A DNA stretch of 64,000 bases, from NCBI GenBank assembly GCA_020736575.1, contig JAGPYM010000007.1:1612001-1676000 (forward strand). Reading direction: 5' to 3'. Of this stretch, positions 23,728 to 64,000 are shown piece by piece. The notes under the pieces were generated by a model. It did not search any database and was not told the DNA's origin. It saw nothing but the letters and a program-made list of their open reading frames with translations. Position numbers and translations under genes: made by a program. Source of the DNA: Thelonectria olida (lineage: Eukaryota; Ascomycota; Sordariomycetes; Hypocreales; Nectriaceae). Numbering within the stretch: position 1 is the first letter of the stretch; each line of letters opens with the position of its first letter.

Positions 23728-24924
23728 TTTTGCACGAGAGGCTGTTTTGGAGTACTTGATAGCTTCCAATGGACCTCGCAGTACGACATTTATTAGAAGG
23801 GCGATCAATGCGTGCGGCTGAAGATGGAATCGTACTAGGTCAGTGAGCCTCTCGTCCATGTACACGTGATAGGTAATAAGGTGAAATGCACATTAACCAC
23901 ATTGGTCAATTAGACACGAACAGTCAGCATGACTGGGCCGCTGGTGTGCCCGACTAATAAGTTGCAAACTGATAAGGATATGGCCAATGTTTGCGTAGCG
24001 GGAAGCAAGAAGGAAACCTGGAACCAGACATTTTGATATGTATTGGTGCGGTGGAAGGTGAGTGGCATGATGTATTGTGTGCTTGACGGAATTACTCGGT
24101 TCATATGTATGTCAAGGGTAGGCGAATTAATATTGTGCCTTCGTATCTGATCTCTGCACGTGCCAACGATCACGTCAGAACTTCAGGCATCTTCCTGCAA
24201 TGGGGCTGTAATTTTGTGTGCGTATTCGCGCCTTCTTGGCGAGAGAAGACCTGGAGTTCCAAGTAGAGACCAAGCTCGATTTGGACGGCCAGCCAGGGTG
24301 GACGGACACCGTGCTCGTCGTCACAAATACTCCGTAGTAAATAAACAAGACCCCCCAAACCCGCCCACTTACCGTGGTCGCCGAACTGCAAGGGCATGTT
24401 ATTAGCATAATCGGCGACCTAATCTCGGTAGCATGCAATATATAAAGCACTGCATGAATTGGTGGACAATTCTAGGTTTGCGCTGAAACGCCCTTTTTCG
24501 CTTCAAGCATTGGGCTCTAAGTAATTGCTCTTCATCCTCGCCATCAGGGTGATAGCGAGGTTGTTATGGACCCCGGGACCATGCTATCCATCCTCCGTTG
24601 GGTCGTTGGTGGCCAGGGAGGGAGGAGCCTTATAAGACTACGCACGCCAGGTGGCTAAGCAAAGCCAACATGTATCTTCACTCACTGCTAGACTCTCGGT
24701 GGCTCGGTCGTTCCATACTCCAACGCCCAGATCCATTTTTCGCTCCGCCTATACCGAGACATCTTTTCTCTCACTCCTTATCCCGATATCGACCCGTCTA
24801 TCGACATCCACTGAAGAAACGGGATTGAGAAATGTTTGGTCATAGGAACCAACAGAACTCTCATGTGCTGCTCGTAGATCGATCAGGCAGCATTGATGGA
24901 CCTGGTATGAGATGATATGCCGTC
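23728..24924. other. Intergenic region
   Basis: This 1.2 kb stretch upstream of the first HET gene has only short overlapping frames on both strands, none with a recognisable domain. Confidence 0.45.
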
Positions 24925-30964: not shown

Positions 30965-31400
30965 GTTGTCTCTGGTTGGGGACTTTGAATGACGTCCTCG
31001 TAAATACAGAGGTGAGGAGGGCTAACGCCAGATGGGTGACAATGGAACGAAGGTTGAGACAGGTTGCCTCGCGTTTTATGTATCTGCACACCCTGAAAGC
31101 AAAACGACCCAACATGTGTGCCTCTGAAAAACTCTTGTTTTCCTTTTTCCATTTTTCCCGTTTATTATCAATCTGTGCCAAGGGCCAAGAGACATGGGGT
31201 ACAATGTCTGCTGATAATGACACACAAGGGGTGAACCCTCCATTCATGGGATCATCCAAGTAGACCGTAGGTCTAATTAGTAGGAGTACGAAGTAATCCC
31301 TCCCTCTGGGCCTTCCTCGGAGACCCGGCCACGCACCTTATAGAGGCGATGCAGGGATGATCGGATCTGTGCCCGACTCCGGATTCTAAGCTAGGAAAGG

Positions 31401-36328: not shown

Positions 36329-37577
36329 CTCTTTGAGAAAGAAATTCTCTCTAAGCCCATTCTGGCTAATTTTAATTCCATACTACGTATACAGTTACCG
36401 AGAATGCCATCCACATTTGGATATCGGAATCTGAAGCTCTCGCCGACTTCGGACCTGCAGGAGCTGTAGGGTAGCACGTCTGTGCAGCATGAGCGAGATG
36501 CTTCGTTTGCAGCCAAGTGTGTGTAAAGCTTGGCATTAGTAAGGATCTTCACATCTCTCGATGGGCACCATGTGAAGCAGGGTGTGGACGTATACGAAGT
36601 CTCAAAATGCCTTGTGGAATGTTGCATTCGAGGGAGCCAGACAGAACTTTTGTAGAACTTCTGACCATGACCCAGCTTATTAGCCTTGGCTGGATGGGGG
36701 TCTCGCGGACATCTTCCTTCTTTCAGCTAAAAGCGCCACCGAGATCGACCATGTTTCTTCCCGTCTGGCTATCCCGGCCGGGGCGTCGGAGGTAGAATAA
36801 GCATAAAGCGCCACTCAACTGCCGGCATCAGACGAACCGCCTTAAATAAGCTTCCCTTACAAGCCGACTCGTTGAAAGGGCGTGGACATACCCAGCGATC
36901 CCCCACCCTTTCCTTTTCCCATGTTGCGGCTTTAATCGCACAAACCAATGGCATACGCTGGCACTTCTGAGCATAGCCCGGTAATGCCTGAGGTATGGAA
37001 TCTTGGCTACTGGTCAGAACGTGTCAGGAAGTGCCGAATCCTAGTGACATGGCGCAATGCTGGCACCGCTTGTCATAATCTCGCTAAGGGGAACATGTCA
37101 GGATGACCTGGACCGCTGATGTCATGGGCGGTGCTCTCGGATGCGGCGCCGAGACGTAGTGGTTGCAGCGACAGCAAGCTGTTCATACTCCGTAGGTGCA
37201 GTAATGCGACTGAACGATCGTTCAGTGCTACTTATCTCTTTGTTTCAATGGCGAAGGGAGTCTGCTGCTTTGACTATATAATAGTGTTAGACTATAAATA
37301 TATGCATTCTTACATCGTTGGTTGAATCATTGATTCCTCTGGGCTTCACAGCTTGCACAATCGTGAAGTGAAAACGTTTTCGTTTTCCATTATTCTTATT
37401 CGAGTGGCCTTTGTGTAAAGCTCACTGTTCTCCGTTTATCCCACAATCAAGTACGGGATCCTCTGTGTAAGTATGGACCTTACCTAATAGCGAGCAGGCA
37501 AATTTGGTTAATTTGCTGAGGAGCTTTAGCTCTGATGAGCGAGAAGACTAATGGACTCGTAGGTAAATACAACGAAA
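36329..37577. promoter_or_regulatory. Divergent promoter between ABC transporter and acyltransferase genes
   Basis: A 1.25 kb bidirectional intergenic region. It contains an 18-bp perfect palindrome (37209-37226), an HGATAR site read on the minus strand just after it (AGATAA at 37232-37237), TATA-like words near 37275 and 37293 facing the acyltransferase, a 12-bp palindrome GAAAACGTTTTC at 37370-37381, and a GTAAGT at 37468 that could start a 5' UTR intron. No gene seen inside. Confidence 0.6.
37209..37226. promoter_or_regulatory. Perfect 18-bp palindrome, candidate regulator site
   Basis: Reads ACTGAACGATCGTTCAGT on both strands. It lies 352 bp upstream of the acyltransferase ATG, inside the promoter shared with the ABC transporter, and is followed within 6 bp by a GATA core. 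Twofold symmetry suggests a dimeric binding protein; none is known to me for this sequence. Confidence 0.45.
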
Positions 37578-38864
37578 ATGGGTTCTGTCATTGTTGAGAC
37601 ACAGCATCGCCACGAACGGCTGTTGAAGATGTCTAACGGGACAACTTTCAAACTACCCGACGGTGAGACCGAAGTGTGGGTTGATGCCACCGGCAATGGC
37701 GCTGCCACGGGCTATGTCGTCGGTTCTGGTGATCAAACGCTGGCTCGGTGGACGACTGATGGGACTCAAACAAGAGTCTCTCCGGCCATGGTCAACGATG
37801 ACAATGCGCAGTTCGACAAACTTCTCCGGCTCCAGCTGCTGAGTTTGGGTGCAGCCGACCCTCGCTCACCATTTCGGTTTGAGGGCCAGTGCCATGACCT
37901 CGCACTGGCATGGGCCTCTGTGTATGCCTTGTGGGTGCATCCCGACCACAGAGACGACGAAATGATCGCCGTCTCGGTGGACAGCGAGCGAGTGGGCGAG
38001 TACATCCGATGCACAGGCTTGGGAGTGCTATCACCATTCTCGCCGGATGTAAGAACAGCAGCGAAACATACCATCTATTGGCTTTACCGTGAGGCGTTCT
38101 GGCAGGGAGCAGGGGCGCCAGACTCGCAGCACTGGCTTCGATCCCGACCTGAAGTGACCTCCTTTCCGGGTTTCAACGGAATGCTGGGTGCTTTCGCCAG
38201 CCAGATGGGGTTCACTCGCAAGGGCAACGTCTGCACCGTCCACCCAGTGCGGCCTGCCAAGCCCAAGCCCGGCACAGTCATCTACTCACGGTTCATCGTC
38301 GAACTCGGCCAGCAGCTGCGAATTCTGCACATTGACGCCGAAAACCCGGTCCATTTTGAGGCGTACAAGCGGTGGCAGAACTCAGACCGCGTCAACGCCT
38401 CGTGGAAGGAGCGCGGGCCGGACGAGCATCACCGGGCGTACCTGGCGGAGCAGTTGGCGGATGCGCACAGCATGTCATGCTTGTTCGAGTGGGACGGCGA
38501 GCTGGCTGGGTACACGGAGCTTGGCTGGGTCAAGGAAGACAACGCGGCGTGTTTCTTTAGCTCTAACTGCAACATTGTGGTGGGCGAGCACGACCAAAAC
38601 TCGCACATCCTGGTGGGCGAGGAGCGCTTCCGGGGTGGCAAGAGGTATGAGGCTGTGGCGACGTCGATCAAGCATTGCTGCTTCTTACGAGACCCGCGGA
38701 CCAAGCAGGTGATTGCCGAGCCTCGATTCGACTTGGCCCACGTTCATATCCAGAACAAGTACCTACCGCAGGAGAAGAAGAAGCGTTTCCACCTACCGCA
38801 CAAGACGGCCATTCTGTTCGCTCTCCAGCGGGATCGGTTTTTCCAGGAGGCGCATCTAGTATAG
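37578..38864 (+). CDS. SidF/SidL-type N5-hydroxyornithine acyltransferase
   Basis: Predicted to transfer an acyl group from acyl-CoA to N5-hydroxyornithine, making the hydroxamate that chelates iron. The 428-residue single-exon protein has the family's two-part plan: an N-terminal variable region, and a C-terminal GNAT-like domain (about 230-428) related to bacterial siderophore acetylases. Landmarks are NPVHFEAYKRWQNSDRVN, HHRAYLAEQLADAH, CLFEWDGELAGYTELGWVKED and the C-terminal KTAILFALQRDRFFQE. It resembles both SidF (anhydromevalonyl transferase, fusarinine/TAFC route) and SidL (acetyl transferase, ferricrocin route). Proximity to a SidC-like NRPS favours acetylation, but no residue I can read decides the acyl group. 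It is divergent from the ABC gene and 0.8 kb upstream of the NRPS in the same direction. No peroxisomal PTS1 is visible (tail EAHLV). Confidence 0.85.
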   Translation: MGSVIVETQHRHERLLKMSNGTTFKLPDGETEVWVDATGNGAATGYVVGSGDQTLARWTTDGTQTRVSPAMVNDDNAQFDKLLRLQLLSLGAADPRSPFRFEGQCHDLALAWASVYALWVHPDHRDDEMIAVSVDSERVGEYIRCTGLGVLSPFSPDVRTAAKHTIYWLYREAFWQGAGAPDSQHWLRSRPEVTSFPGFNGMLGAFASQMGFTRKGNVCTVHPVRPAKPKPGTVIYSRFIVELGQQLRILHIDAENPVHFEAYKRWQNSDRVNASWKERGPDEHHRAYLAEQLADAHSMSCLFEWDGELAGYTELGWVKEDNAACFFSSNCNIVVGEHDQNSHILVGEERFRGGKRYEAVATSIKHCCFLRDPRTKQVIAEPRFDLAHVHIQNKYLPQEKKKRFHLPHKTAILFALQRDRFFQEAHLV

Positions 38865-39675: not shown

Positions 39676-42600
39676 ATGAAGACCGCTGAATTGATGCCCT
39701 GGCTACCTATCACGCAGCTCCGACCACTGCATTCTCGCCAGCAGCCTGCCAATCGAGAGCTAAAAACACCACCGTCAGGAGAAAAAGAGCATCATGAAGA
39801 TGATTCCCAGCTGCTGCACTGGCTAAGCTCTCTGGAACCAAGACCCAACGGGGACACAGCCACCAAAGCTTTTGTAAAGCTTGTCTCTCGCCTAGTGGTC
39901 CTTGACCCTGGCGAGGCTTATTGTATCCAAGACTCTATACGCGGTGGCTTCATCTTGGCTTGTTCTGCCAGCGCAGGCCATAAGAATGAGAACGGCGATG
40001 GAGCGTTTAGCTTCATCGAATGCGAGAAGAATCATGACATTCCAACTGACTTTTCGATTGGTGAAGGAAAGGTGAGTTGACCCAGAGGAACTCAGAGGGC
40101 CACAGTGAAAAACCCATGCTCGACGGTTCTTGTGGCTAACAAGCAACTCAGGCCTTGCAACTTCATATCAACGCGGTAACTGGACAAGTGCAGTTGACCG
40201 CACAGCCCAATGTGATACCTCCAGCTGCTCTCGAGGCCGTGGGTCTGATGCTGGACGACCTCATCGTTGGCCTGCAGCAAGGTCAAGGCCGCCAAGATAC
40301 AGGTAGGAAGTGGACGCAACCTTCTGTGCTCAACTTCCCACCCAAGGACAGGCCCTTGGCTTTGCTTCATCAAGAGCCGACCTGTTCAAACAATTTGCAG
40401 AATGAGGTGGATGAGATTCATCAGGATGAGCCAGCCTTACTTCACCATTGGTTTGAGCAACGCGCGGCAGAAAACCCTCACAGGACGGCTCTGGATTTTC
40501 TCGTACACCTTGAAAGCGGCAAGAGGATTCAGTATACATATCAACAAGTCGAGAACGCCGCCAACGCGCTAGCGGCTCAGCTGGTCAGCACATCTGCACA
40601 GTCGCAGTCACAATCACAGCCATCCATCAACACGGTTTCCGTGCTGATGGGGCCCTGCCCAGAGTTGTATATCAGCTACCTGGCGGCTCTCAAGGCTGGG
40701 ATGGCATTCTGTCCTATTCCCGTGGATGCCCCTGAAGAGAGAAAGAAGGCACTTATGGAAGATCTGAAGCCAGTTGCTGTTCTTGAGGCCGCACCGACGC
40801 AGTCAGGGTTATCATCATCGTTGTGGTCTACCACGACGACCATCATCAGCGTGATCCCCTATCTTGCAGCATGCGACGTCAAATCGGAAAGACAACCCCT
40901 CTCCCCCCCATTTTGCGCCACGGAGACTGACGTGGCTTACATCCTATACACGTCAGGAACAACTGGCATGCCAAAGGGCGTGGCCGTCAGCCATGTTTCC
41001 GTAGCATGCACCATCTCCGCCCTAAGTGCTCACTACGGATTTGTCTCGCCAAAGTCACCATCGCCCAGCGAACCCATTAAATGGTTTCAAGGCGCAGCTC
41101 CCACCTTTGACATTTCCATCTTTGAGATCTTCTGGACACTCAGTACCGGTTCGACGCTCTGCTGCGCCCCGCGCGAGTTTACGTTGCAGGACATTGACAA
41201 GGTCGTCACGACCTTCGAGGCCGACATAACCAATATCACTCCCAGCTTCGCCAACTTGCTGGACCCTTTGTCTATCCGTGGTCTGATGGTTGGTGGGGAG
41301 ACACTGAATGCACGCCTCTTGCAACGCTTTGCATGTCACAACCCCGCTGCGACTGTGGGTGGTGACGACCGCGGGCAAACGCCTAGAGGTATCTACAACG
41401 GATATGGGCCTACAGAGACGGCCATCTACTGCATCGCGCAGGCTCACGTCCCGGAAGAGCAGCGAGGTTCCGTGCTGGGAACACCTCTCGCAACGTGCGG
41501 ATGTCTCATCGTCGATGAGCTGGCTCAGAGCCAGGCTCAGACTGAAAGCTTGGAGCCCGTGCCCATGGGGGCAATAGGAGAGCTCGTAATCACTGGCCCG
41601 CAGGTGAGCAGGGCGGGCTATCTCAACCGTCCCGAGGAGACTGCGTGCGCCTTTATCGACGATCCGCGATGGGGTAGGGCATATCGAACCGGCGACCGAG
41701 CTAGAATTGTATGGGACTCCCGTGGTGAGCCCATTGTTGAATTCTTGGGCAGGATTTCTGATGATCAGGTCAAGCTCAGCGGAAGACGCGTGGAGCTTGG
41801 CGAGATTGACAGTGTGCTGGCCAGCAAGGTGGAAGGCATTCAGGAGACTCTTTCTTGTGTCTGGAAGCACCAGGGTGCTGAGGCCGGCTCTGAGAAGGTC
41901 GTGAGTCTTGTTGTCCTTGATCCGCGTGCCGACTTGGCCTTTGGATTTGTCCGCCAGGGGTGTATTGAGGCCGCACAACGGCACTTGCCGGACTACATGA
42001 GACCCTTTAAGATCTTTCAGGTCGTGGCGCTCCCGAAATCTCCATCCGGGAAGGCCGATCGCAAAGCAGCTCTGACATACGTTCGGGAGACTTTGACGCA
42101 GGACCATCAACTGCACACATCAGAGTCTACTCAGGATGAAGCCACCGAATATGTTGAGGCACTACCCGACACTGACGATGCCATACTCGAAGAAGAGCTC
42201 CTCTCTACCGTGTGTGATATTCTCAGCGATGGCTCTGCCACTACCAGGGTGACACTCACGGCCACCACGCCACTCGCCGAGGCTGGCATGGACAGTCTTC
42301 GCGCAATGAGACTCTTGCGCGATATCAGGAGGCAGTGGCTCAGCTCTGGATCCACAGAACATCGACATCAACACGCGCATCTACAGCCACCACTGGCCCT
42401 GCTTCTCGGCTCGGGGGCCAGTGTTCGATCCGTGTTCTTCCCCTCGATGCAAAATGTCGATGACTCGACAAAGCTAAATGCCATGGAAGCTGATGTACGA
42501 AGTCAATTGGCTGAATTCTCCTCCAGATACGCGACGGAAGCTCTCGACAAGCTCAATCTCGCTAGCAAGACTGACATTGAGATGATTCTTCCCACAACAT

Positions 42601-45600
42601 CCACTCAGAGTCAGCTGGCCATGAGCTTCGCTATGGATAGGCGCAACTACATCAGCCATTCTGTCTTGAGACTGAAGCCGGATGTCTCGGCCGCGGCGCT
42701 CAAGACAGCCGTCGAGATGGTTGTCTCCGAACAGGCCATATATCGATGTGCAATTCTTCCATGTGATGATTCGCTGTCCCCATTTGCCCAGACCATCCTG
42801 GCGCCTGAGGCATGGCATAAATTCGTCAACAACGCGAGTCGGGTCGTGCACAGGAGGACAAGTGCAAGTCGTGTTGCTGCTGATATGAAGGTGTGGCTCG
42901 AATCGGCTGAGGAGAACATTTCTCTCGATTCTCAGAGGCTGTACCATATTCAGATCATTGAGCCAGACGCGGATTGTGAGTCCAATTCCAGTAGCACTGG
43001 CCTTTTGGTCATCAGCGTTGCCCACTGCATCTGCGATGGTGCCTCACTTGAGGTGCTTATGACCGACATCGCCAGGCGTTATGCTGGCCTGGAACCTCTC
43101 CCGAGACAGGGCATCTACGAGGTGGTGTTTGAATGGGCGTCAAACGTGGACCCCGGGACCGACAAGCTGTGGCGAGAGTTCCTAAACGGCTGGGAACCAG
43201 AAAGTTTTGGTTCGTTAAGCGGTAACAACGTCAAGCCATCTTCTGTTGGTTCAGGGTGTGATCATGAAATGGTCCAATACGCCAGTGGCCTACCATGGCA
43301 GGTCTTGGAGGACAAGAGCAGGGCCCTGGGTGCGTCCCCGTTGTCAGTTCTCCAAGCGGCCTGGTCCCTGCTCCTTCATTTGTTCTCTGAGGCAGACACG
43401 GGAGATATCACGTTTGGAAGCGTCATTTCGGGCCATAATCTCGCTGCACACGCGCCCACCTTCTCAGTGGTGCCTTGCCGGGTGGCCCTGCCCGCGATGC
43501 AGACTATCAGTCAACTTCTCGGCAGCCTTGCAGCTCACTCCAAGTTTGCGCAGAGCCACCGGCACACATCCTTTGGAAACTTCAAGACGCTGCCATACAC
43601 CACAGCCTTGGCCCTACAAGCATATCATTCGCCGGATCCTGGGTCCGAACATGAGTTTGCAGAGAGTTCACCTCTCTTCTGGACCGAAATCCAGAACCCA
43701 GCTATACGTTACGATTTTTCTATGTTTGCGGAGCTCTTTCCAACAGACCCTCATTCCCCAGATCGAAATGGACAGTTCAGTAACATGACGTTCAAGCTTA
43801 CGTACCGCGGGGATGCGCTCTCAGAAGTCTCGGCGACATGCATCGTGAAGCAGCTGGCGGCACTCACGGAAACCATACTTGGCTCAATGCCCGGTGACAT
43901 GGTCCAGGGGCTACCAGGACGCCTGCCTAGGAGCTTGCTGTCTACAGAAGGAACAATTCCGATTCCAACCAAAATCGAGGAAGAGCCAAGCCGGCAAAAT
44001 CAGGATCGAGTTGAACTTCTACACTCCCAATTTGAAAACCAAGCTGCGTCAACCCCTGATCTTCTGGCCCTTAGTTTCTACGCTTCATTAGATTCGCCTC
44101 CAGTCGAGTTAAGCTATGCAGAGCTTGACGCCAGGGCCAATGGCCTAGCAAGCGTCCTGCGCGAGGAAGATGTAGAGATCATTCCCATCTGTTTGCAGCG
44201 AAGCGTCGAACTCTACGTCGCCGTCCTGGCAATCCTGAAAGCCGGCTCGGCGTGGTGCCCTATTGACGAGACGTCGCCGGTGCAAAGACGGACCTCGCTG
44301 ATCGCTAGGACACAGAGCAAAGTATTGCTCACGACCACTGAGTCCCTACCTCTGGTCGAGCCCTGCCTTGCCCAGGAGAGTCTTCAGGGCGTGCGCGTAA
44401 TTCTTATCGACCAGTACGCGAATCTGAAGACATCGATGAGGCCCGATCCGCGCCACAGCGTTCTATCTTCGCACCGCCTCAGCGGGAAAGACCTGGCTTA
44501 TCTCCTGTGGACTTCGGGAACCACAGGTGAGCCAAAGGGTGTCATGATCCAACACGGCGCCGCGGCACAGGCTATGCGCGATCTTCAGATCCAAGTTGAG
44601 CACGATAAGGAGACCGGTCAGGTACGCACCTTGCAACTGTCGGCATACAGCTTCGATGTATTCGTGCAGGACCTTTTCTACACCTGGGGCCTGGCAGGGA
44701 GTGTCATCAGTGGCACACGAGAGGTGGTGCTGGGCACCTTTACTGAGTTCATCTGGAAATCCCGCCCCACGCACGCTCACCTCACACCTTCATTTGGCGC
44801 GAGTATCACTGTCGACGAGATCAGGGGCTCAACCCTGCAGTACGTGACCTTCATAGGCGAGAAGCTTACAGAAGACGTCGCCGAAGCCTGGGCGGCACCT
44901 GGAATCACCACACGCGCGTACAACACATATGGACCAGCCGAGAACGCGGTAGTGTCCACCCTGAGGCAATTCTACGGAAAGAGCAGGGATCAGGCGAAGG
45001 CTGCCAACGTAGGCTTTCCCTTGCACCACTGCACTGCTTATGTCGTTCGCGAGGTTGAGGTTCAACAAGACAAGCTGAAGCGCTGGGAGCTTGTCCCGCG
45101 ATATGGAGTTGGCGAGCTGGCCCTCGGTGGCGCACAAGTAGCCAAGGGCTATCTCAGTAACGAAGCCAAGACGACCAAGGCTTTCATCCAGGGGGGCCCC
45201 GGTATCGACGAGCGTATCTACCTAACGGGAGACATGGTGCGTCTCAACGACCACGGCTTCGAGTTTCTCGGCAGAAACGACGATCTGGTCAAAATCACCG
45301 GCATCCGCATCGAGCTGAGCGAGATCAGCGCGGCCTGCGCGAGCGTCAAAGACCAGGAGATGGCCGTCGAGCACGTCGAGACGTTGTATCTCTTGCGCCC
45401 AGGGACTGACACTGGCAGCAGCAATAAAGTCGTCGTCACTTTTGTCTCTGTCAGGAAAGACAATGTTGACACGGGCAAGATCAGGGCACAAGTACTCCAG
45501 AGGGCTAGGGACATGCTACCTGCGTACATGGTTCCCGGCCACATCGTGGTTCTGGAAACGACCATGCCGAGAACCGCATCTAACAAAGTCGACCGTAAGG

Positions 45601-48600
45601 CCCTGCAGGAGATCTACAAGGAGTCAAATCTGAGCGTTCTAGCTGGAAGAGATAGCTCTGATCACTCCACTGGTGACGGTCAGCGGACGGAATTGCAATG
45701 GACTGAGGCACAGCTTCCTGTTCTGCAGAGCATCGCCAGCAACTTCAACGTGGCACTCGAGCCCCTCTCTCCAGGAGACAGCTTGGCCGGTCTGGGCTTT
45801 AGCTCTCTGCAGGTTACCAAGCTGGCGTGGTCATTGCGACGGCAGCTGAAGTGCGCAGTTGGGGTTCTTGACCTGATGCGGTGCCAATTTCTCGGCGAGC
45901 TGGTCGATGTCGTTCTCGCAAAGCTACCGAGCCAGAATGCCGCACTCCCGCAGTCCAACGACACAAAATCTCCTGCAACGTCAGCAGAGACTTCATGGGT
46001 GGCTGTAGTCAAGGAGATGCTGACCAAGAAGCTTCGCGGCGACATGCGACCGCATGACACACTATACGTGCTGCCTGCGACCCCAATGCAGGAGTCACTT
46101 ATCGTTGAGACAATGCTAGAGCCTCGGGCGTACTGGGCACATCGTGTGTTTGATTTCAGTCACCTGGGCGATATCGATGGCCGTCGTTTGAAGAACGCCT
46201 GGACTGCGGCTGCGAAAAAATTCGACATACTCCGAACCATCTTTGTTCCTTTGACGCAGCTGGACATAGAACCCACAGAGGGGCATGACAATGTTGTCAC
46301 ATGGGCTCGTCAACAAGGGATTCAGTCCACGATTCTGCAACTGGTCCGCGGCGAGCCGAATGTGTGCTGGACTTGGCTCTCCAGTGAAGAAAATCAAGAT
46401 CTAGCCAGCTGGGCCGAGAAGCTACAGATGGAACTGGCGCCGACAACCACACCCCGTCCCCCTTGGTCTATTACCTTTGCCGAGGGGCAGGGCAAGTTGA
46501 TGTTGAGCATGCATCACGCACTCTACGATGGCGTATCATCACAAATCCTCCTCGACATGGTTGCTAAGCTCTACCAGAAGCAAGCCGGGGACGGCTCTGA
46601 TAACTTCGTGCAACTCGCGAGAGGTATGGAGCTGGGTCTGTTGCCTACTGCTTCCCAGAGGGATGAGGCTGCCACCTTGTGGAACAGCCGTCTCGCCGAG
46701 CTCAGGAAGACGTCAGGCGTGTTGAACGCTCCTTTCCCCGACCTAACACAATCCCGACAACAGCAGCCACAGAGGATCCTGCTTTCAAGAAGAGTGATCC
46801 CTCCTTCGTTCTTCACAGCTGCATCTGGATCGCCGGCTCTTCCGACATTGTTCCAGTCCGCATTCGGGTGCGTTCTAGCATCATATCTGGAGTTGAAGGC
46901 CGTCATGTTCGGCCAGACGGTCTCGCAAAGGATTTTGCATCCTGACCTCACCCGCGTCATGGGCCCTGCAATGACTACTCTTCCCGTGATTGTCCGCGCA
47001 GACAGCCCCTCAGCCAAGGATCTCTGGAGCAATATGGCCCGCGACTCGTCCAGCCTCCTCCGAAGTACGCACAACCTGCACCCCGTGGATATCAAGAAGA
47101 TGCTCAACCAAGACAGCGAGAACAGGAACGCCCCATTCCCGGGTCTCTTTGTCTACCACCCGGCCCAGGAGACCCCTGGAGACGATACCGCTCAACACAT
47201 GTTCCGGGAAGTAGACCAGGCACTGTCGCTCAATGTGGAACATCCCCTTGCCTTGAACATTTTTGAGGCCGACGGAACCATGGAGCTCACCGGCGATGGG
47301 CGTCGCATCTCCCAGGAGCAGTTGGAACTCATGTTGGATCAGATCGTTGACCAGGCTCGGGTTATGGCGGAGTCACCCCAGCTCCCTCTTGGCCAGCTTC
47401 AAAACAGAATGGACCGCAATCTCATATCCATCAGTGGTGAGGCTACGACTGACGAGGTTCGCGCAGTCGAGTTAGTTGATCCTACCAAAAGCATCTCCTT
47501 GCATGCGTCCGAGCATCCCGAATGGATCGCAGCTGAGGAAGTCATTTTTGAAGAGTCAGATGAGATCGATGACACAATAGTCACCAAGACTATCACCTAC
47601 GCCCAGCTGGACATGCTCACCAATGCCATCGCCTCCAGGCTAGCCCACGAGGCTCTTCTCCAACCAGACGACGTCGTTGGTATGTACCTGGGCAGGGACA
47701 TCACATCGCTCGCAGCAACGCTGGCCATCTTCCGGGGCGGCTACATCTACCTTCCCGTGGACGAGGATCTACCCCCTGCCCGGAAGCGGCTGCTCGTCCG
47801 TGACGCCAAAGCAAAACTCATCATCACTACGAAGAAGCTTGTCAGAGACCTGGATCTGGACCTCGACAGTGATCCGCCAGTTTTTCTGATCCCTGATGGT
47901 GAAGATAATGTCGATATAATGCTGTCTTGGCCCTTGTTTGAGAGACAGCCTCCAACCGGCCACGGTGGCTACCTTCTCTACACTTCGGGGTCTACGGGCC
48001 GTCCCAAGGGCGTGCGTGTGTCTAACAGCAATCTGTGCCATTTTATTGCCGCCTTCAGTACCCGCATGATCGAGCCCTCGCCCGTCACGGCTGACCTAGG
48101 GGGCGTCGGGAAGTATCTCAACCTTGCATCTCGTGCCTTCGATCCCCACCTCACGCAGCTCTTTGTGCCCTGGCACCTAGGCCACCGCGTGGTTATCGGA
48201 AAGGACCGTAATGCTATGCTCGGCAGTCTGCAACAAGTCATCAACGAACTGGACATCACGCACTTTGGCTCCGTACCCTCCGTGTTGACTCAACTCAGAC
48301 TACGGCCTGAAGACGTGCCCTCGGTCAGAGTTGTGACGACTGGTGGAGAGAAGGCGTCGATCGAGCTTCTCGACACTTGGACGAAGCGATTCGATCATGT
48401 TGACCAAGATGGGCAACATCAACAAGTTGTCCTTTTCAACTTCTATGGGCCGACAGAGGTCACAATTGGCTGCCTGGGCCATGCTGTGAGCCGCGCCTCG
48501 AACGCTCGGAACCTTGGTTTACCACTCCAAGGCCTGGAAGCTCTGCTTTTGTGTCCAGGCACTGGCGACGAACAAGTCGTTGCCAGGCGAGGTCAGCCAG

Positions 48601-51600
48601 GAGAGCTTTGCATAGCCGGTCCGCAAGTGGCCATGGGCTATTTGAATAGACCTGCGGAGAACGCCAAGAGCTTCTGGGCTACATCGTTGCTGGGAGACAA
48701 CGAAAAGAGAGTGTACAGAACAGGCGACATGATGAGGATGATGCATGATGGGACTCTTGAGTTCCTAGGCAGGGCAGACCATCAGGCCAAGATCCGGGGT
48801 CAGAGGCTCGAGCTCGACGAGGTCGTATCTTTCCTCAAAGAGGCTGCAGTCGGTGAAGGTGATCTTGACTTTGCTGCCACCATTTTCACCGGCGACAATG
48901 ACGGCTCCAACAAACACCAGCAGCTGTTGGGTTTTGTGGCTCGTAACGCGAGGAGTCTTTTAAAGGGGGAAATCGACGCTGAGGTTGAACTGCTCCAGAA
49001 CCAAGGCCAGGCGTTAAAGTTGGTTCTGGAGAGGATCGAGCAGAAGTGCGAGGCTGGGCTCCCGGCTTTCATGGTGCCCACAATGCTTTGGGTTTCGAAG
49101 ATCCCCTACTTGTCCGCGTCAGGCAAGGTAGATACCAAGCTCCTGGCTAAGTTGGCGGTTGACTTTTTCGCTTCCCGAGAAGATCAACAAGATCGAGATG
49201 GGCCTGCATCTACAGCTATCACAAACTCAGGTTACGTTTTAGACAGCAACGAGTCCTTGGTCGTGGCCGCTGTGGAGGAGGCTGTGGACGGCAAAATCAA
49301 GGCCACCGCCACAAGCACCATCAATAGCTTGGGCATTGACAGTCTCTCGGCTCTTCATCTAGTGTCTTTCTTGAGAAAACGGGGATTCTCGAAGCTTACC
49401 ATCGCCGAAATCATCTCATCCTCGTGCACGGTAGGATCTATAGCCCGATTGGCGGACCGAGAAGACTTGGGCCGGAGTGCCTCGATGAGCAGCGTGTCCG
49501 TATTCAGGTCGCCACAGCAGCAAACGACAGACATGCTACAAGAGGTCGGGCCGCTCAGTATGGCAGATCTTGGCCCAATTCCTGTTGGCCTCAACAATGT
49601 GCAGATCGAAGCAGTACTGCCATGCCTGCCTCTACAATCCGCCCTTGTCGCCCGGTCCCTGGCGTGGCTAAGCGCCAATAGTGGTGGCGATGACGACAGA
49701 ACAGCAGTCGACGTCCCATACGTGGCGGAATTCCACTACCGTCTTTCTCGAGGCACGGATGTCGCCAGATGGAAGAAGGCAGTGGAGCTGACTGCCGCAT
49801 CTGAGGCCATGCTGAGGACTTGTTTCGTTCAAAGGGAAGACGATGGTCGAATCTTCCAAGTTGTTCTCCAGTCACCTCCTTTCTCGCCATTCGACGGTCA
49901 AAGAGACTCGGTGGATATGGTGGCCCAAATGAACATACGACCGCCAATCACAATGCAAATTCGAGAAACTGAAGATTCTGGCGAGACTGTCGTTTCGTTG
50001 AAGATACATCATGCTCTCTTTGACGGCGTGGCTATCGACGTGCTCAGGAAGAGGTTCGAGCAGCGCTACGACGAAGACAACTCCGTTTTATCTTCTGACA
50101 ACAAGAGCCTCAATGTTCTCACGAACATATCCGCGTACTGTCATCTCTCGAATGCGCAAATAGAATCCACAAAAAGGTCGTGGCAGGCGAGGTTACATGG
50201 TGTGCGGCCGTGCCGTGTCGGGGCCTACAACGATAACAACGAACATGGCACCATGGTTCGGTCGACTTTGTGTCTTTCCTACACAAATTCTCAGCTCATG
50301 GCACAGCTGCGGACTCAGTCTCAACAAGGCGGCGTGTCGATAACACCTTCCTCTGCTTTCCAGTTGGCGACCGCCCTCTGTCTAGCCCAACTTACTCGGC
50401 AGACATCAGTCGTCTACGGTTTTGTCATGTCACTCCGACCCCTACTTGATCACGTTGCCGACGGCGTGGGCGTCTTTGTCGGGCCATGTATCAACACCCT
50501 GGTCCAGACGCTCAGCCTCCAAAGACGCGGCGAGGCTTTACCTGAGCTTGCCCAGAGAGTCCACGAGGCTCACATTGGTGCCTGCCAGGGAACGATGCCG
50601 TTCGTCAGTGTGAATCATATACAGCGTTGGGCTGGATCCGAAAACCAGCTGTTCGACAGTTTACTGAGTATTAACCTTGTTCCCGAGGCCGTGGCGACAA
50701 ATGGTGAGCCCGAGCCTGGGCGCATGAGTGCTCTACGTACCCAGAGCAAGAGTGACATGGCCTTGGCAATTGACGTCGATTTGCACGCAGATGGCAGGAT
50801 CCTCTTGACGCTTTCGTCGTCTGGGGCCCTCTATGAGTCTCAACTGGAGGGTGTTGGGCGGTTGTTTGAGAAGATCGTGTTCAGTTCTGCGGATAAGAAC
50901 GCGAAAGTCGAGCATTTTGTGTCGGCGCACCTTGACACGAACGCCGTCCCTGACAGGCATCATACCCCCAAATCCCTTGATCTAGAGCCAAGTTTGGAAT
51001 ATAAGGGGTATCGAGAGGCCTTGGCCTGCGTACAGGCAACTGTTTGCCGTCTCTTCCGTCTCAAGCCGTCTGATATATCGGATGACACCAAACCGACTTC
51101 GCTGTACCAGATGGGTCTCGATTCTATTACGGTTCTTCCATTCGTCAAGATTATTAACAAGTCAGAGAACATTAAGTTAACTCCCGACGTCGTCATCAAG
51201 GCTCGAACTATCCAAGGCGTCGCGAGACTTGTCCAGGAAGCGAAGACGAGGGGCAGCACAGCTGTCAATGGCAGCGCACAACGAGAGGGAGAAGCCAGAG
51301 ATGACAAGGCCAGCAACAGCATGAACAACAAGGAAATGTACGAGAAGTCTCTAGAACGACTAGCCAAGGACCTCATGTTCATCGCGACACCGCTTCAGGA
51401 AGGTATGCTCAGTGCCTCGCTCGCCATTACAGGCAAGGCTTACACATACACCCACACCATCCAATTATCCGAACAGGCCCTCGGAGCAGACACTCCCAGC
51501 CTCGGCAGCTTCTTTGCCGCCGTCAGGGATACAGTACAGGCCTGCGAGATACTGAGGACCCGCTTCATTTTCACACAGGATGACGAGGCACCGTGGGTTG

Positions 51601-54488
51601 GTGTTGTGTCCCCGACTGAACAGAGCGACCTTGTCAGTTGGGAGGCAGTCGAGTCAGGTCCGCCCGGCAAGGTGCAGCTGAGTATTCACCATGCCCTATA
51701 CGACGCGACTTCGCTTCAGGCTGTGTGGCGTATCCTGAGCGAGAACTACCGTCGGCGCCTTCAGAGCGATGATCAAGATCCCAAACAAGCTGCGAAGTAC
51801 CTGTTCAGGCCCTTTGCAAAGACAGTAGCCACGGCGCAAGGGGACTCGGTGGCATTTTGGACCAATATGGTTCAATACTATAGTTACATGCGACTCGACT
51901 TCCCAGGCGACTCACTTCAGGCGTCATCCTCCTTCCATTTTGCTTTGGGCGAAGAAGACCTGTCGATTCTGCAGACAAGATGCAGGGCACTCAGTGTGAC
52001 AACCAAGGCAGCACTTCAACTAGCATGGGCAAAAGTACTGTGCGAATCTCTTTATGGACAAGCAGATGTCGTCTTTGGCGAGGTCGTCTCGACTGGTGGT
52101 GGATTTGACGGTGATGCTGTCATTGTTGGCCCTACCATCAACACAGTGCCCATACGGGCCAAACTAGCCCGCCAGGGTATCACCTTCAACGTTGCGGAGG
52201 CTTTGGCTCGGGTGCAGAAGTTAAGTGACGATGCGAGGGGGGCGGACGCAATGGCATCTCTGAGGAAGATCCAAACGAAGTGGAGATGGTCAAGTCAGGA
52301 CATCGAACACGCCCCCGCGAGTCTTTTCCAAAGTCTTTTTGTATTCGATGGCATCATTGCTTCCACAGAAACTCTTAGCGAAAGCTCAACACAACCATTA
52401 TTCAGCCCCGCTCAAGCCCAAACCGAGAGCGTTCAGGGGGACTCTGATGATGATGGACCAGCGTATGACGACTACCCTCTGATTGTCAGTTTCCGCATCA
52501 AGGACAACATCCTTCACGGCAAATTGAGAGCCAAGATGGTTACAAATGAGGTGGACACCTTAGGCAGCCGATTGGAGGCTGCGGTGAAACACATCGCCTC
52601 ATGCGAACTGCAACAGCCTGCACTTGACACCAGCCACATGGCAACGATTCAGAAGAAGAACTTGGCCCAAAATGGAAGAGTCATAAACGCGCTGGCAAAT
52701 CGTTCGGAGATGGACAACCTGACTCCAAAGGCCGATGCTGTTATGGAAGTAGTCAGGACGGTGTTGGGGAAAAGGTGTATGGGCAAGCAAATTGGCTATA
52801 ACACGAGGTTGGTCAACATAGGCCTTGACTCGATCTTGGCCATTCGCCTGTCAAGGCTCCTGAAGAAGCGGATGGGAATAAGTGCGAGCGTTTTTGAGAT
52901 CATCAAAGGCGCCAGCGTCCATGACATCGTCAAGAGCATGACCTCGACTCAGAAGGTCGAGGTCCGCAAACCGAGACAACAGCTGATGGCTCAGGAGGAA
53001 GAGCTGAAGGGGATCGTGGCCAAACACCTCGGACTGCCAAGAGACTTCGTCAAGTCTGTGTTGCCAGCCCTAGCAGGCCAGCGCGCTCACCTGGAGCAAT
53101 GGTTATACAACGGCAAGAGGTTCTTTGAGGCACCATGGGTGTACCGGGTTGATGATTCTCTCAACACAAGGAAAGTGGCGAGCTGCTGGACTCAGCTTTG
53201 CCAAGTCCACGAAGCTCTCCGTACCACGTTCGTCTGGACAGGCAATGCTACCGGGCTGGTTCAGGTCACATTAAGCGAGCAATGGGTGGGAGAGGGGCGT
53301 TTTACGGTTGTCCGAGACCTATCGAAACCCATCCAAGCCTTGATCGACGGGCATATCGGCGAGGAAAATAACAAGCCATCAGACTTGAGGCAGCCCCCAG
53401 CTCGTTTGTCGCTACTTGAAGCTTTGGACGGGAAAGCAGTTGTGATCCGCGTCCACCACGCACTGTACGACTCATGGAGTATCAAGATGATTGAGAAGGA
53501 CTTCAATGAGCTCTTGGCCTTTGGCAAGGTGCTACAGACTCGTGCGCCTTTTAGAGACATGGTTCGCCAAATCAGAGACATCATGCAGCCCGATGCTGAG
53601 TACTCGTATTGGAAACATCACCTGTCGCACGCGCAAGATACTATCCTGCACACGGGAACTGAGAGGGATGCATCATCAGCATCCACATCCAAGTCTCCGC
53701 TGGGCCCGCACTTCAAGGCCAGCTATTCCGCTGTCGTCCCACAGAGCACCATCGACGCACTATCACGAACCAACAGTAATGCACGCACCTCGGCCTCGAT
53801 CATCCTGGCCTACGCAAGGACGCTCAGGCATTTCACGAAGAGCTCTCAACCCACGTTCGGCCTGAACCATGCTTCACGGTACCTGTCTTCCACAGACGGG
53901 ACACAGACTCTCGACTTGACTAACGCGAGCGTGCCGACACTGACTGTGACACCATTTTGCATGGACTTGGACAGTCAAAGCTCTATGGTATCATCTGATG
54001 AGCACTTGCTAGACTTTGTACAAGCCCATCTGGCAGAGCTCACCAAATTCGCGCAGTCAGATTGTGTACAAAAGCTTTGCCCCAGGTTCAACTGCTATAT
54101 CAACATTCTCTACCCCGAAGACAATACCGCTGAGGTTCAGGATCTGGATGGTAGGGCTGGAATGAAGGTACTGAGCAGGCACAAGCTCAGGGAGCCTCTT
54201 GCGTCAGATTACTTCACTATCACTAAGGCCTCGCCAACCACCGTTTCTACTGTCGAGGGGCTTGAAACCTCACACTTGTGCCCCGGTCGATTCTTCTTCA
54301 ATGTTATCGTCCATGAAGGTCCAGATATCAGCGTGGTAGTGAGCGGTGATGACGTGCTATGCGACGGGGACTTGACGGGGGTGACAAACCTCGTGTCATA
54401 TTTCGGTTCTGAACTGGCAAAGATCATTCAGGGAGCATGTACAGGCCAGGCTTCGATAATTCAGACCGAACAATGGAGAGACGAATGA
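39676..54488 (+). CDS. sidC: Ferrichrome-type siderophore nonribosomal peptide synthetase (SidC/NPS2-like)
   Basis: Assembles a cyclic hydroxamate hexapeptide such as ferricrocin from glycine, serine and N5-acyl-N5-hydroxyornithine. The protein has 4910 residues: exon 39676-40071, intron 40072-40151 (GTGAGT...CTCAG), then a 14.3 kb exon. Domain order is A1 (226-776), T1 (Ser847), C1 (His1090), A2 (1415-1956), T2 (Ser2017), C2 (HH2253), A3 (2582-3132), T3 (Ser3196), C3 (HH3418), T4 (Ser3790), C4 (HH3978), T5 (Ser4359), C5 (HH4567). All five carrier serines are present. C2 and C3 keep HHxxxDG; C1 has AHCICDG, C4 ends in DA and C5 in DS. There is no thioesterase; the last C domain is expected to release by cyclisation, as in this family. 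Three A domains plus two extra T-C units match the known iterative SidC/NPS2 layout. Ortholog naming is by architecture and length, not by phylogeny. Confidence 0.94.
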
Positions 54489-59131: not shown

Positions 59132-62100
59132 CTAGCTTCCTCCTCCTTCGTACCGACCGTAGGACCAAATGCGAGCAACCATGTCGCCAGAGCCAGTTGC
59201 GAAGAAGTCTCCTTGGGGAGGCGCCGCGACTGAAAGAACCGAGTTCTTATGGCCCTGGACCAGACATTGTGATATGCCTGTTCGTGGATCCCAGAGCTGG
59301 CAACCCCTATCCTTAGACCCAGACAGCAGCCACTTTGCGCCAGGAGTGAATGCAACCGACAGGACAAAGGCCTGGTGGCCCTCGATTGTCTTGATACACT
59401 TGCCTCTACTTGGACGTATACTCTGGAGGGGCACACTGAGATCCCACACCTTGATAGTCTGGTCGAAGCTGCCCGAGGCGAGGTTCTCTCCATCGGGTGA
59501 AAAGGCGACCGAATAGACACCTTCGCTGTGTCCATCAGGGCCTTCAATACGCACAAGAGGGACGCCTGTGCGGGTTTCCCAGACCCATATGCAACCGTTT
59601 ACTGCGCCTGAAGCGATGAGTTGCATCTCTGGTGAGAAAGCGACGCTCGCGACACTATCTTCGACGGCGAAAGTAAGGGTATTATTCCCCGTGCCGACAT
59701 CCCACAAACGGACAGTCTTATCGCCACTACCTGAAACAATCATTCGCCCATCTTGTGAAAAGTCTATCGAATAAATATCCGACGTATGGCCCTCGAGTTT
59801 GGTTTGGATTGTACGGGATTGGATATCCCAGACCTGGAAATGTTGGTGTTTAGTACAGTTGGGGCTGGATAAGTTGGGAAGAAACTCACGTAAACCATAT
59901 AATCCTCCAAGCTAGCTGTAGCCAGACAGCTACCATTAGGGCTGAAGCACACGCTGCGTACATACGTTTCTTCGACCGTATCGGAAGCCTTGTGATCCAG
60001 GACACACACCTTCTCGCCAGTCTCTACCTCGAAGATCTGGGCAGCCCGTTCACTGCCAGTCGCGAGGTACTTGCCATCGTGACTAAACTTCACGCAGCAC
60101 ACAACAGTTGAATGTTTGAGTGAGTGGACTAGATTGATGTCGAGGTCTCGTGGTAGTTGAGGGTTAAAGATGACCCGCCAATCTGGACCATCCTTCTTGT
60201 AGAGGGGAGGCACGGAATCAAAGTCGAACTCCTTAGGAGCCTTGGCAACGGGGACGGCTTGAGTATCGTCGGGGGTCGGATTGCCGAGCTCGGACGATGG
60301 AGCCTTCTCTGGAAAGTCCATGTTCGGTTGCAGCAGCCGGATGATGTCCTGATGTCCCTCCTCGACGGCAATCGAGAGTGGTATCCGTCCATCCTTCTCC
60401 ATCACCTGGTCGTCGGCGCCTTCGTCAAGCAGCATTCCGACGATAGCGCTGTGTCCGTTCCTAGTGGCGTTATGTAGGGGCGTCCGGCCATCGTGGTCAA
60501 TAAAGTCGATATTAGCTCCCATCTCGATTAGTATGTTAACGATTTCCTCACATCCAGCCTTAGCGGCCAAATGTAGGGGCGTTTGGCCAAAATTGTCCAT
60601 AGGTTCGAGTTTAGCATCTCTCTCAAGCAGCATTGCGACGATTTCCTCACATCCAGCCTTAGCGGCCAAATGTAGGGGCGTCCGGCGAAAAGTATCCACA
60701 TGTTCGAGTTTAGCGCCTCTCTCAAGCAGCATTCCGACGATATTGTTACATCCAAGCTCAGCGGCCAAATGTAGGGGCGTCTGTCCATCGAGGTCAAAAA
60801 AGTCGATATTGGCTCCCATCTCGATTAGCATGCTAACGGTTTCCTCACATCCAGCCGCAGCGGCCAAATGTAGGGGCGTCCGGCGAAAAGTATCCACATG
60901 TTCGAGTTTAGCGCCTCTCTCAAGCAGCATTCCGACGATATTATTACATCCAGCCTCAGCGGCCAAATGCAGGGGCGTCTGTGCATTATTGTCAATGAAG
61001 TCGATATTGGCTCCCATCTTGATTAGTATGCTGACGATATCCTCACATCCAGCCTTAGCGGCTAAATGTAGGGGCGTCTGTCCATCGAGGTCAAAAAAGT
61101 CGATATTGGCTCCCATCTTGATTAGCATCCTAACAATATCCTCACATCCAGCCTTAGCGGCCAAATGTAGGGGCGTCCGGCGAAGACTGTCCCTACATTC
61201 GAGAACGGCACCTCTCTCAACCAGCATTCTGACGATAGCGTCGTGTCCATTCTTGGCGGCATAACATAGGGGTGTTCGTATAAGATTGTCCCTATGTTCG
61301 AGATCGGCACCTCTCTCAAGCAGTATTCTCACAATAGCGTCGTGTCCCTTCTCGGCGGCATAGTGGAGAGGTGTCGGGAGAAGACACTCGCCCCCGGAAT
61401 CAATATCGGCTCCCTTCTCGATTAACCGCCTGACAGTAACCTCATTTCCATTCTCGACGGCCCGCGATAGCACCGTCCGGCCATTTTGGTCCGGGGCGTT
61501 CAATCTTGCCCCCATGGCTTCGATGATCTCATATGGCAAAGCCGGCTGGCAGCCCAGGGTTTTAACGGCGGCACTTCTGACACTCTCGTCCAGGTCGCCC
61601 AGCTGTTCGGCTAGGGATTTCATTGATGCTGCTTCAGAGTCGTCGGCCATTTCCCAATGTTTACATTTGGAGGTATATCCCGCTTCCTCACTCATGAGTA
61701 GCTTTGAGAAGTCGGCCGGGGCCTGCCCATGATCTCCAGCTGCAGAGAAGCCGAGGCTGCTTGCATTTGACTTGGCATCACTGGTCTTGCCTTGAGACTC
61801 GAGTCTCGCCGCCTGCACCGAGTCGTTTGTCCCTCCATTTTCTTGCCCGTCCTCAGCATTGGGCAAGACGAAGAGAGCGAGGTCCTCCATATGAGTGGCT
61901 AAATGTTTCTGCAGCGCCGAGAATGAGAGTTCCTCTCCACACACCAGGCATTCATATTTCTCGCAGTTTACGTCACCGACCTGGTGATCACATAGATCCA
62001 GAATGACGCCTAACTGTGCCGGTGAGATGGATTCGCCATAGTGCTCCCGGAGGTGTCTTGACATTTCCGTCTTGCTGGGGTACGTGCTGGGGCACTCTTT

Positions 62101-63539
62101 GCAGACATAGGTGCGGCGGTGAATCTGAAGTTCGTGATACATCCACTCGTGGCGGCTGACATAGAGCTTGTCAGAATTCTGGCAGTCTTTGAATGTGCAG
62201 ACATAGGGACGGAGATCGTGGAATACATGGCGCCTATGGGTTTTCTAATCAGCACGGTTAAAGCGGTATTTAACAGGGTTGAACCTACTTCCACGACTGC
62301 CTGTTCTGCATCTCGCTCGACTCGAGCGTCATCCCACAGTACGGACATGGAAAGGTTGTCTTTCCATTCTCCGTCTTTGGGGGATCTGGGACAGTATTTG
62401 AACGCCCTTGACCGATATTTGTGGGAGCGTAGACTGTTCGTGGCCGGACGTTTGTCTTGGTATCGTGGACGTCTGAGACGGCAGCTGTAGAGAAGCTCTG
62501 CTTGGACATGGTTGACTTTGGCCCTGCACGAGGGAATTTGAAACCCGGCTGTTTGAGGGTGGATGTCTGGCTTTGCGATTCCTCCCTGGTTTCTGGTCCT
62601 TTGGCAGGATGCTTCACCAAGTCTGGTCTTGCAAGCCGGCCTGGGTCGAGTTTATGCTGCTCGGGATCATATGGGTGATCGGTCCAATACTGAAGTTGCT
62701 CTCGGCGCCTCGTGTTCGCTCTTGAAAGTCGTTGGCAGTACCACAGAATGTCATCGACATCATTACGCGCCGATCCTTGTCCCATGGCAGCAGCTTCCTC
62801 GTCCTCAAAGCTAACGCTCCGCTCGCTCTTTGTCAAGCCACGCCATTGCAGCACCTTCTCTACGATGTGACTCTCGTCTGACTTTATGAAGCTGACCATG
62901 AGTGGTAGCGAGTCCGGCTTGTCTAGTACGGCTGCGCGCAGCTTAGAACTGATAGAGCGGATGTATTTGTCCGCTATCTTAGGGCGCCGGAGCAAGGAGG
63001 AAAGGTCATATAGCGACCGGATCTGGTCCGTTATTTGCTGGACGAGCAGACAGATCTTTGGCATCCTGGTACGCTGGGGTTCTTCCTCATCGTCTGAATC
63101 AGAGTTAGAGTCGGCGCTGACGCTGCTGACCGAATCATGGTCCGACCCGACGATGGGATCATACTTTCTGTTGGTGATGGATGTAGCTGAAGCCGAGTCA
63201 GATAAATGCATCAATCATCTTGATTTACTTGCCTTGGCAGAGAAGCCCGCTCAGTCGCATGAAAATGGCCTCTACCAAGCCTTTGAGGTTCTCGTCGTGC
63301 CTGAGCGTGTCATCTAATGAACCTCGAGCCCTTTCCGGAAGGTCTGCTTTGGTCTGGTCTCCCCAGATCTTGGCTCTCCCGTACTGGTCCAACATCTCGG
63401 CAAGATGAACTTGCTTCAGACGAACTGCACGGCAATTCTGTTCGCTCAGGGATAGTAGAAAATCCTGGAACAGCCGCATGCATTCGGCATATGACTTCGA
63501 GAGCGATGGCGCAGTTGCTTCGGTCGAGATGGCCTCCAT
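59132..63539 (-). CDS. C2H2 zinc finger-ankyrin-Tup1-like WD40 fusion protein
   Basis: Predicted 1416 residues in four exons. Introns are 63187-63232 (46 bp, GC-AG type with CAAG|GCAAGT donor and CTGAC branch), 62234-62288 (GTAGGT...ATAG) and 59834-59889 (GTGAGT...CCAG). The N-terminal 380 residues are helical with an Asp/Ser-rich patch. C2H2-like fingers follow at about 385-510 (FPCPYCGM, YVCKECPSTYPSKTEMSRH, YECLVCGEELSF...HLATH), as in the acuF-like C2H2 family of fungi. Twelve ankyrin repeats occupy about 640-1040. A WD40 domain takes up about 1085-1416 and opens with DWRVIFNPQLPRDLDINLVH, the Tup1/RcoA propeller entry; it continues with VVCCVKFSHDGKYLATG, LSGSKDRGCQLWDPRTGI and FATGSGDMVARIWSYG, all close to Tup1. 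The Tup1 N-terminal tetramerisation domain is absent. Function is unknown: a transcriptional corepressor-like scaffold, or a recognition protein with Tup1 as decoy, are both possible. Confidence 0.85.
60320..61510 (-). repeat. Twelve 99-bp ankyrin-coding repeats, internally homogenised
   Basis: Tandem units of 33 codons with the PLHLAA...A.CE.IV.ML...GA core. Outer units have diverged, while units 4 to 10 are nearly identical in DNA. A two-unit (198 bp) block is duplicated: about 82 bp starting at 60663 reappears unchanged starting at 60861. Another segment recurs after exactly three units (60774 and 61071). This indicates recent unit exchange or gain within the array. Confidence 0.9.
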
Positions 63540-63933: not shown

Positions 63934-64000
63934 ATGGCTGAAATCGCAGGCCTCGTTCTTGGCGGCATCCCAATCGCCATCTGGGCATTGGAGAAGTACG
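63934..64000 (+). CDS. N-terminus of a fungal HeLo-like/DUF7580-type protein (partial)
   Basis: The ATG at 63934 opens a frame of 22 codons to the right edge (MAEIAGLVLGGIPIAIWALE, then KY). This matches the common start of fungal proteins of the form M..IE(I/V)AGLVLG.IP..I.AL..Y, which carry a helical N-terminal domain related to HeLo-like/DUF7580 and occur in cell-death and STAND-type immune proteins. It is head to head with the ankyrin-WD40 gene. Only the first residues are visible, so the rest is unknown; the family call is from memory of the N-terminal pattern. Confidence 0.5.
   Translation, partial: MAEIAGLVLGGIPIAIWALEKY

Follow-up and report, generated by a model that had tools for sequence, protein, structure and literature searches.

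A Tup1-type propeller captured behind zinc fingers and ankyrin repeats in Thelonectria olida: a candidate variable sensor in a putative recognition receptor without a nucleotide-binding domain

The window analysed in this study is a 64,000-nucleotide stretch of the Thelonectria olida genome (C133:1612001-1676000; the assembly has 52.5 Mb in 165 contigs), and near its right end a minus-strand gene joins a helical module with C2H2 fingers, an ankyrin array and a Tup1-type WD40 propeller. The fusion gene has four exons (63539-63229, 63167-62289, 62233-59890 and 59833-59132), which are separated by GT-AG introns of 61, 55 and 56 bp. The joined frame encodes 1411 amino acids (aa) with a single, terminal stop, a little shorter than the roughly 1416 residues given in the original prediction, which had been made by a model from the DNA letters. 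The features of the locus are the following.

63934..64000, plus strand: start of the head-to-head neighbour, a DUF7580 protein (PF24476) that runs beyond the window to about 1677.9 kb of C133
63229..63539, minus strand: exon 1, which opens with the start codon (63539) and codes for residues 1-103, the first helices of the module (open frame, GT-AG junction; module conserved in relatives)
62289..63167, minus strand: exon 2, residues 104-396: the remaining helices of the module, the acidic/serine linker and the first part of the zinc-finger region
61864..62368, minus strand: C2H2-type finger region, residues about 371-520, with the intron 62234-62288 inside (PF13894 and conserved Cys/His)
59890..62233, minus strand: exon 3, one open frame with fingers, spacer, ankyrin array, Tup1 linker and first blades
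60334..61491, minus strand: ankyrin array of 12 repeats (12 Ank stretches in Pfam; tandem-repeat scan)
60184..60321, minus strand: Tup1-derived linker 5' of the propeller, residues about 1035-1080 (aligns with the linker of the own-genome Tup1)
59153..60183, minus strand: Tup1-type seven-bladed propeller, residues about 1081-1405, with the intron 59834-59889 inside
59834..59889, minus strand: intron 3, 56 bp, at the position of an intron in the own-genome Tup1 gene
59132..59833, minus strand: exon 4, last blades and stop codon

Pfam recognised 12 ankyrin and seven WD40 stretches in the fusion protein (counted over the best 25 of 63 families), and the predicted layout of C2H2 fingers plus 12 ankyrin repeats holds for the window copy. 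Within residues 1-644 one C2H2 finger passed the Pfam cut-off (PF13894 at residues 439-461, 28.1 bits against 27) and the other C2H2 models stayed below it, while the Cys/His columns of the finger region were at least 90% conserved in the 73 listed relatives. The best match of the window copy, P0134 from Fusarium lateritium, has three Ank stretches as compared to the 12 found here. Exon 3 holds the ankyrin array and the first propeller blades in a single open frame, an argument against a split into two genes. The DNA of the array repeats every 99 bases, higher-order periods of 198 and 297 bases are seen as well, and tandem repeats were detected at 60472-61362; the same scan gave no array over the WD40 part, the repeats being confined to the ankyrin array. 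A 303-codon open frame lies opposite the array (60353-61261, plus strand) and is most likely a by-product of the ankyrin repeat.

The propeller is derived from Tup1, as had been proposed. Residues 1041-1411 are 59% identical to the Tup1 of the same genome, encoded on contig C122 (374 aa, 454 bits), versus 44% to a HET-E-type array (300 aa, 225 bits). In the PDB search Tup1 (1erj) was a single full-length match with 315 bits, and the repetitive arrays 2ymu and 7big outscored it in summed score through multiple matches. In the propeller tree, the check suggested along with the original prediction, 21 Tup1-type rows, including the WD40 half of the fusion, were separated from five HET-E-type rows with support of 100/100. 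Probably the 3' half of a Tup1 gene, with linker, propeller and intron, was copied genomically and joined behind an ankyrin array, in Fusarium as in this genome. The fusion is not the Tup1 orthologue of this genome, which sits on C122 and carries the Tup_N domain (PF08581, 6.1e-18), which serves tetramerisation and Ssn6 binding; in residues 1-644 of the fusion Tup_N was not found at E 0.01, in agreement with the original prediction. As to one or two fusion events, the tree supported a window clade of seven (94/93) and a clade of P0140, P0149 and P0162 (99/99), and the join of both was unsupported.

A search with residues 1-600 of the fusion, covering proteins of about 776-2469 aa, gave at least 73 related proteins. 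The part behind the N-terminal module is swapped among them. WD40 repeats are present in 14 of the 73 listed relatives, 11 of Tup1 type, two of HET-E type (P0173 and P0175, 55-61% identical to HET-E versus 36-41% to Tup1) and one undecided (P0199); the 11 Tup1-type proteins are all from Fusarium, nine with a full propeller and two truncated within it. TPR repeats occur in 19 of the 73 (11/36 and 8/37) and ankyrin repeats in 18 of the best 36, and single relatives carry a kinase (P0137), HEAT repeats (P0139), a PF17111 domain (P0184) or, by precomputed annotation, NB-ARC (P0205). In the T. olida genome itself, module members carry WD40 (C14), TPR (C84) or kinase (C155) domains, and five further module frames had no Pfam match at E 1e-4. 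The domain order is therefore unusual, as the original prediction held, but uniqueness, which it had only suggested in knowing of no described system with this order, is not supported: 11 Fusarium proteins have the N-terminal module and a Tup1-type WD40 region. These proteins are labelled hypothetical, C2H2 or tup1 in their sources, and the public F. beomiforme protein P0162, 'transcriptional repressor tup1', appears to be one of the fusions. They share the module and the Tup1-type WD40 region with the window copy and differ from it in their top faces and, in the three scanned for repeat counts (P0134, P0140 and P0162), in having fewer Ank stretches. A search with region 1045-1160 had come back nearly blank, with just 13 proteins and none of the Fusarium relatives that the module search detected, and was a false negative. 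A whole-propeller search (best 120 of 7710) was swamped by repetitive WD40 arrays and served as a source of single sequences only. Neither a Tup1-ankyrin fusion nor a pair of the module with DUF7580 was met in a literature search by titles and opening abstract lines.

The conservation of the propeller was then compared by surface. With the Tup1 of this genome as template, the loops from strand d to strand a and the b-c turns of all blades were counted as the top face, 77 columns in total. The five Tup1-type references, namely those of yeast and of this genome, P0122, P0125 and P0018a (taken from a protein with two propellers), were set against the ten fusions with a full-length propeller, the window copy included, and against five close relatives, P0135, P0136, P0138, P0141 and P0143, which we take to belong to the F. 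solani complex. Mean pairwise identities for top, bottom and other columns were 0.777, 0.400 and 0.505 in the references, where the top is the most conserved class, and 0.402, 0.584 and 0.533 in the ten fusions, where it is the least conserved (permutation 5e-5). In the five close relatives, whose finger regions are 87-97% identical, the values were 0.464, 0.801 and 0.707. The top was below the rest in 42 of 45 fusion pairs and above it in all ten reference pairs, and dropping any single fusion altered the result little. Our results show that the partner-binding top face, the most conserved part of Tup1, is the least conserved part of the propeller in the fusions of the relatives. In Podospora HET-D/E, codons 7, 9, 25 and 27, which lie within the d-a loop and the b-c turn, are reported to be under diversifying selection (PMC1805685, PMC2873952). 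The 28 equivalent positions were located by their distance from two landmarks, the conserved end of the strand and the Asp of the turn; the set was taken from PMC1805685 but mapped after the first top-face result, and the permutation assumes independent columns. Mean pairwise identity at these positions was 0.245 against 0.710 for the rest in the five close relatives, 0.260 against 0.537 in the ten fusions and 0.786 against 0.524 in the five references. Variability of the HET-D/E kind in the d-a loop and b-c turn, as distinct from selection, is present among the relatives, and not within the single window copy.

The window copy itself has kept most of the Tup1 face. Residues C348, Y445, S448, E463, Y580 and K650, which we take to be Tup1 face residues, agree in letter with the 1erj chain (for C348 the numbering offset was inferred as 279 or 280, and either gives C); L542, likewise considered, disagreed with 1erj and was dropped. 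Added to these were Y489 and N673, which are experimental, and V346, D464, R465, Q486, L547, R652 and H671, which are predicted, all from PMC2614187. Since R465 and Q486 are not constant in the references, they do not count among the 13 invariant face residues. On this list, drawn in part from the literature and in part from general background, the window copy retains 12 of the 13 (L547 is changed to V) and the nine other full fusions together retain 67 of 117. It equals Tup1 at 17 of the 28 HET-like positions, as does P0135, and is exceeded by P0143 with 20; at the Tup1-invariant columns it keeps 38 of 48 (79%) in the top face versus 57 of 68 (84%) elsewhere, which is no clear difference. Judged by the face residues, the window copy would be the one among the ten fusions most apt still to contact the partners of Tup1.

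A second gene accompanies the module. The start codons of the fusion and of its head-to-head neighbour are 394 bp apart, and the neighbour matches PF24476 at 2.1e-20 on the approximate joined protein (own-genome match C133:1677150-1677827). When 17 module loci of the T. olida genome were compared with 25 DUF7580 places (26 rows, two of them exons of one gene) at a limit of 6 kb, a DUF7580 match was found beside 13 of the 17, at 0.9-3.9 kb, where 0.1 was expected. These pairs lie on C133, C81, C84, C88, C90, C46, C89, C115, C132, C24 and C14, with two on C57, and ten of the 13 are divergent. No DUF7580 match within 6 kb was found at the other four module loci (C57:278 kb, C155, C78 and C94), and a HET gene, read by eye, lies near the first two of these. 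As a control, HET genes (PF06985, about 150 of 152 matches, counted by reading) were within 6 kb of four of the 17 module loci against about 0.6 expected. The module loci sit in HET-rich regions, yet the link to DUF7580 is far stronger. Of the seven partner loci with listed frames (C133, C81, C88, C46, C90, C89 and C115), the start was placed in the first four; these begin with a similar hydrophobic stretch, AG-x-V...P, and the four gave no meaningful Pfam match. A literature search under the name DUF7580 found no paper, and the recurrent pairing names this protein as a candidate partner.

The fusion may be a non-self-recognition receptor of an immune type without a nucleotide-binding domain, with the captured Tup1 propeller as its variable sensor and the DUF7580 protein as its partner, a reading to which we assign a probability of roughly 0.55. 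The family combines a conserved N-terminal module, made of a helical bundle and C2H2 fingers, with C-terminal domains that are exchanged between members. The propeller would no longer be a conserved corepressor surface, and its top face would read a ligand and vary like that of HET-D/HET-E. Ligand binding would cause the N-terminal module to signal, most likely jointly with the divergently transcribed DUF7580 protein, with which it may physically interact, and a defence or cell-death reaction would follow. This division of labour, with the propeller reading the ligand and the module and its partner carrying the response, is drawn by analogy with HET-E, whose WD40 top face reads an antagonist according to PMC1805685 and PMC2873952. 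The original prediction had regarded the ankyrin half as the sensor and the propeller as a recruiter or decoy; the sensor role shifts to the propeller, since no other part of the relatives varies as much as its ligand face, and the decoy part of that proposal remains, most of all for the window copy with its 12 of 13 face residues. Two comparisons weigh against the inversion of the face. Measured against the own-genome Tup1, seven of the ten fusions resemble it less in the top than in the rest, three of these by at most two points, and the other three resemble it more in the top; and P0149 and P0162 show no top-face inversion between the two. In its widest form the proposal is tentative, possible rather than probable: a two-gene non-self-recognition system outside the NLRs, made of a C2H2-module receptor with interchangeable sensors and a divergently paired DUF7580 protein, in which the Fusarium sensor would be a Tup1 propeller with its repressor-binding face turned hypervariable.

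The propeller could instead be an integrated decoy, a bait for effectors or antagonists from bacteria, viruses or rival fungi that target Tup1, so that their binding triggers a response. The duplication of a host hub gene and its fusion to a receptor-like protein, whose receptor role is itself conjectural, agree with this, and the 12 of 13 partner-face residues make a decoy most plausible for the window copy. There is also a precedent in the CHK2-type kinase domains of Sordariales NLRs, which have been proposed as integrated decoys (PMC12258605). For the plant corepressor TOPLESS, a role as effector target or as susceptibility gene has been reported (PMC10754003 and PMC7446885). However, a decoy should keep the targeted surface, and the nine other full fusions keep 264 of 432 Tup1-invariant cells in the top face (61%) versus 455 of 612 (74%) elsewhere (permutation 0.006); we consider this explanation unlikely.

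It is rather improbable that the protein is an alternative corepressor adaptor or a dominant negative, in which the zinc fingers would serve for DNA binding and the propeller would recruit or titrate the repressor partners of Tup1. The WD40 repeats of Tup1 alone bind repressors in yeast (PMC10163088), C2H2 fingers are present and most partner-face residues are kept in the window copy, but Tup_N is missing, a single finger passes the cut-off, the face is not conserved among the relatives, and elsewhere the N-terminal module bears kinase, TPR or HEAT repeats in the place of the propeller. A paralogue under relaxed constraint, with no recognition role and a top face decaying since the partners of Tup1 no longer matter, would be in line with a degraded Tup1-type copy on contig C136 and with the three of ten fusions whose top face is still closer to Tup1 than their other columns are. 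Against such decay stand the intact frame of 1411 aa, the conserved propeller strands and bottom face in the close relatives, the focus of variability on the HET-D/E positions and the 11 Fusarium proteins of the kind, nine with a full propeller, and we regard it as very improbable.

Further Tup1-type copies were noticed outside the module family. The degraded copy at C136:5817-6335 (minus strand) matches the last blades of the fusion with 64% identity in a stretch of 84 residues; Tup1 linker text is readable there in another frame, and by eye DUF7104 repeats like those of the Trichoderma aggressivum protein P0123 lie upstream. In two deposited Agaricomycetes proteins, P0049 (Marasmius sp.) and P0121 (Termitomyces), a kinase and Tup1-type propellers stand together by sequence and precomputed Pfam annotation; these may be real fusions or gene-model joins. 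The basidiomycete protein P0018 (Astraeus) has two tandem Tup1-type propellers, and tandem basidiomycete copies resemble each other slightly less in the top face than in the rest (0.81/0.85 and 0.69/0.80).

The remainder of the window contains a non-ribosomal peptide synthetase frame at 40140-54485 (4782 aa, three adenylation stretches), and beside it an Acetyltransf_8 gene (37563-38861), an ABC transporter (31889-36382) and an MFS gene (28949-31021); the region 28949-54485 might be a cluster of hydroxamate-siderophore type adjoining the fusion. Two HET-domain (PF06985) frames lie on the minus strand (21748-23892 and 26490-28139), a galactose-oxidase-like protein with an F5/8 type C domain is encoded at 10567-12705 (plus strand), and a long DUF6606 protein frame occupies 1-5961 (minus strand).

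Fungal recognition receptors are mostly sought via NACHT or NB-ARC, and a C2H2-module family would be missed in this way. If the receptor proposal is true, receptors would also have evolved via corepressor capture, and Tup1-type propellers would have been taken up more than once (in Fusarium, in the Trichoderma DUF7104 protein and in the kinase-linked Agaricomycetes copies). The fusions offer a natural experiment on one scaffold, whose ligand face is most conserved in Tup1 and most variable in the fusions, and the contrast opens the questions of what ligand the face reads and by what route a corepressor propeller becomes a receptor.

As compared to Tup1/RcoA (1ERJ), the fusion shares the propeller with its entry strand, the text of the linker and the place of the intron, but it is without Tup_N, carries the helical/C2H2 module and the ankyrin array in its place, and belongs to a group in which the ligand face is not conserved. 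The Podospora NACHT-WD40 proteins HET-D, HET-E and HNWD likewise have a C-terminal WD40 propeller, and the relatives of the fusion vary at the matching top-loop positions; the fusion differs in that its propeller is of Tup1 type and its blades are not near-identical repeats. NACHT or NB-ARC was not found in residues 1-644 at E 0.01, the remainder being ankyrin and WD40. C-terminal repeats (WD40, ankyrin, TPR or HEAT) are shared by the fusion and its relatives with the fungal NLRs of the STAND class. The T. aggressivum protein P0123 has a Tup1-type propeller behind a repeat region as well, though its repeats are DUF7104, unlike those of the fusion. In the NLRs with a CHK2-type kinase (PMC12258605) the domain of a conserved host gene was likewise captured by a receptor-like family; in the fusion the captured domain is that of Tup1, the nucleotide-binding domain is absent and the captured face is highly variable in the relatives. 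The same Sordariales study counts 13 head-to-head NLR pairs among 225 two-gene clusters and calls them rare; in the T. olida genome, by contrast, the pairing of the module with DUF7580 is common.

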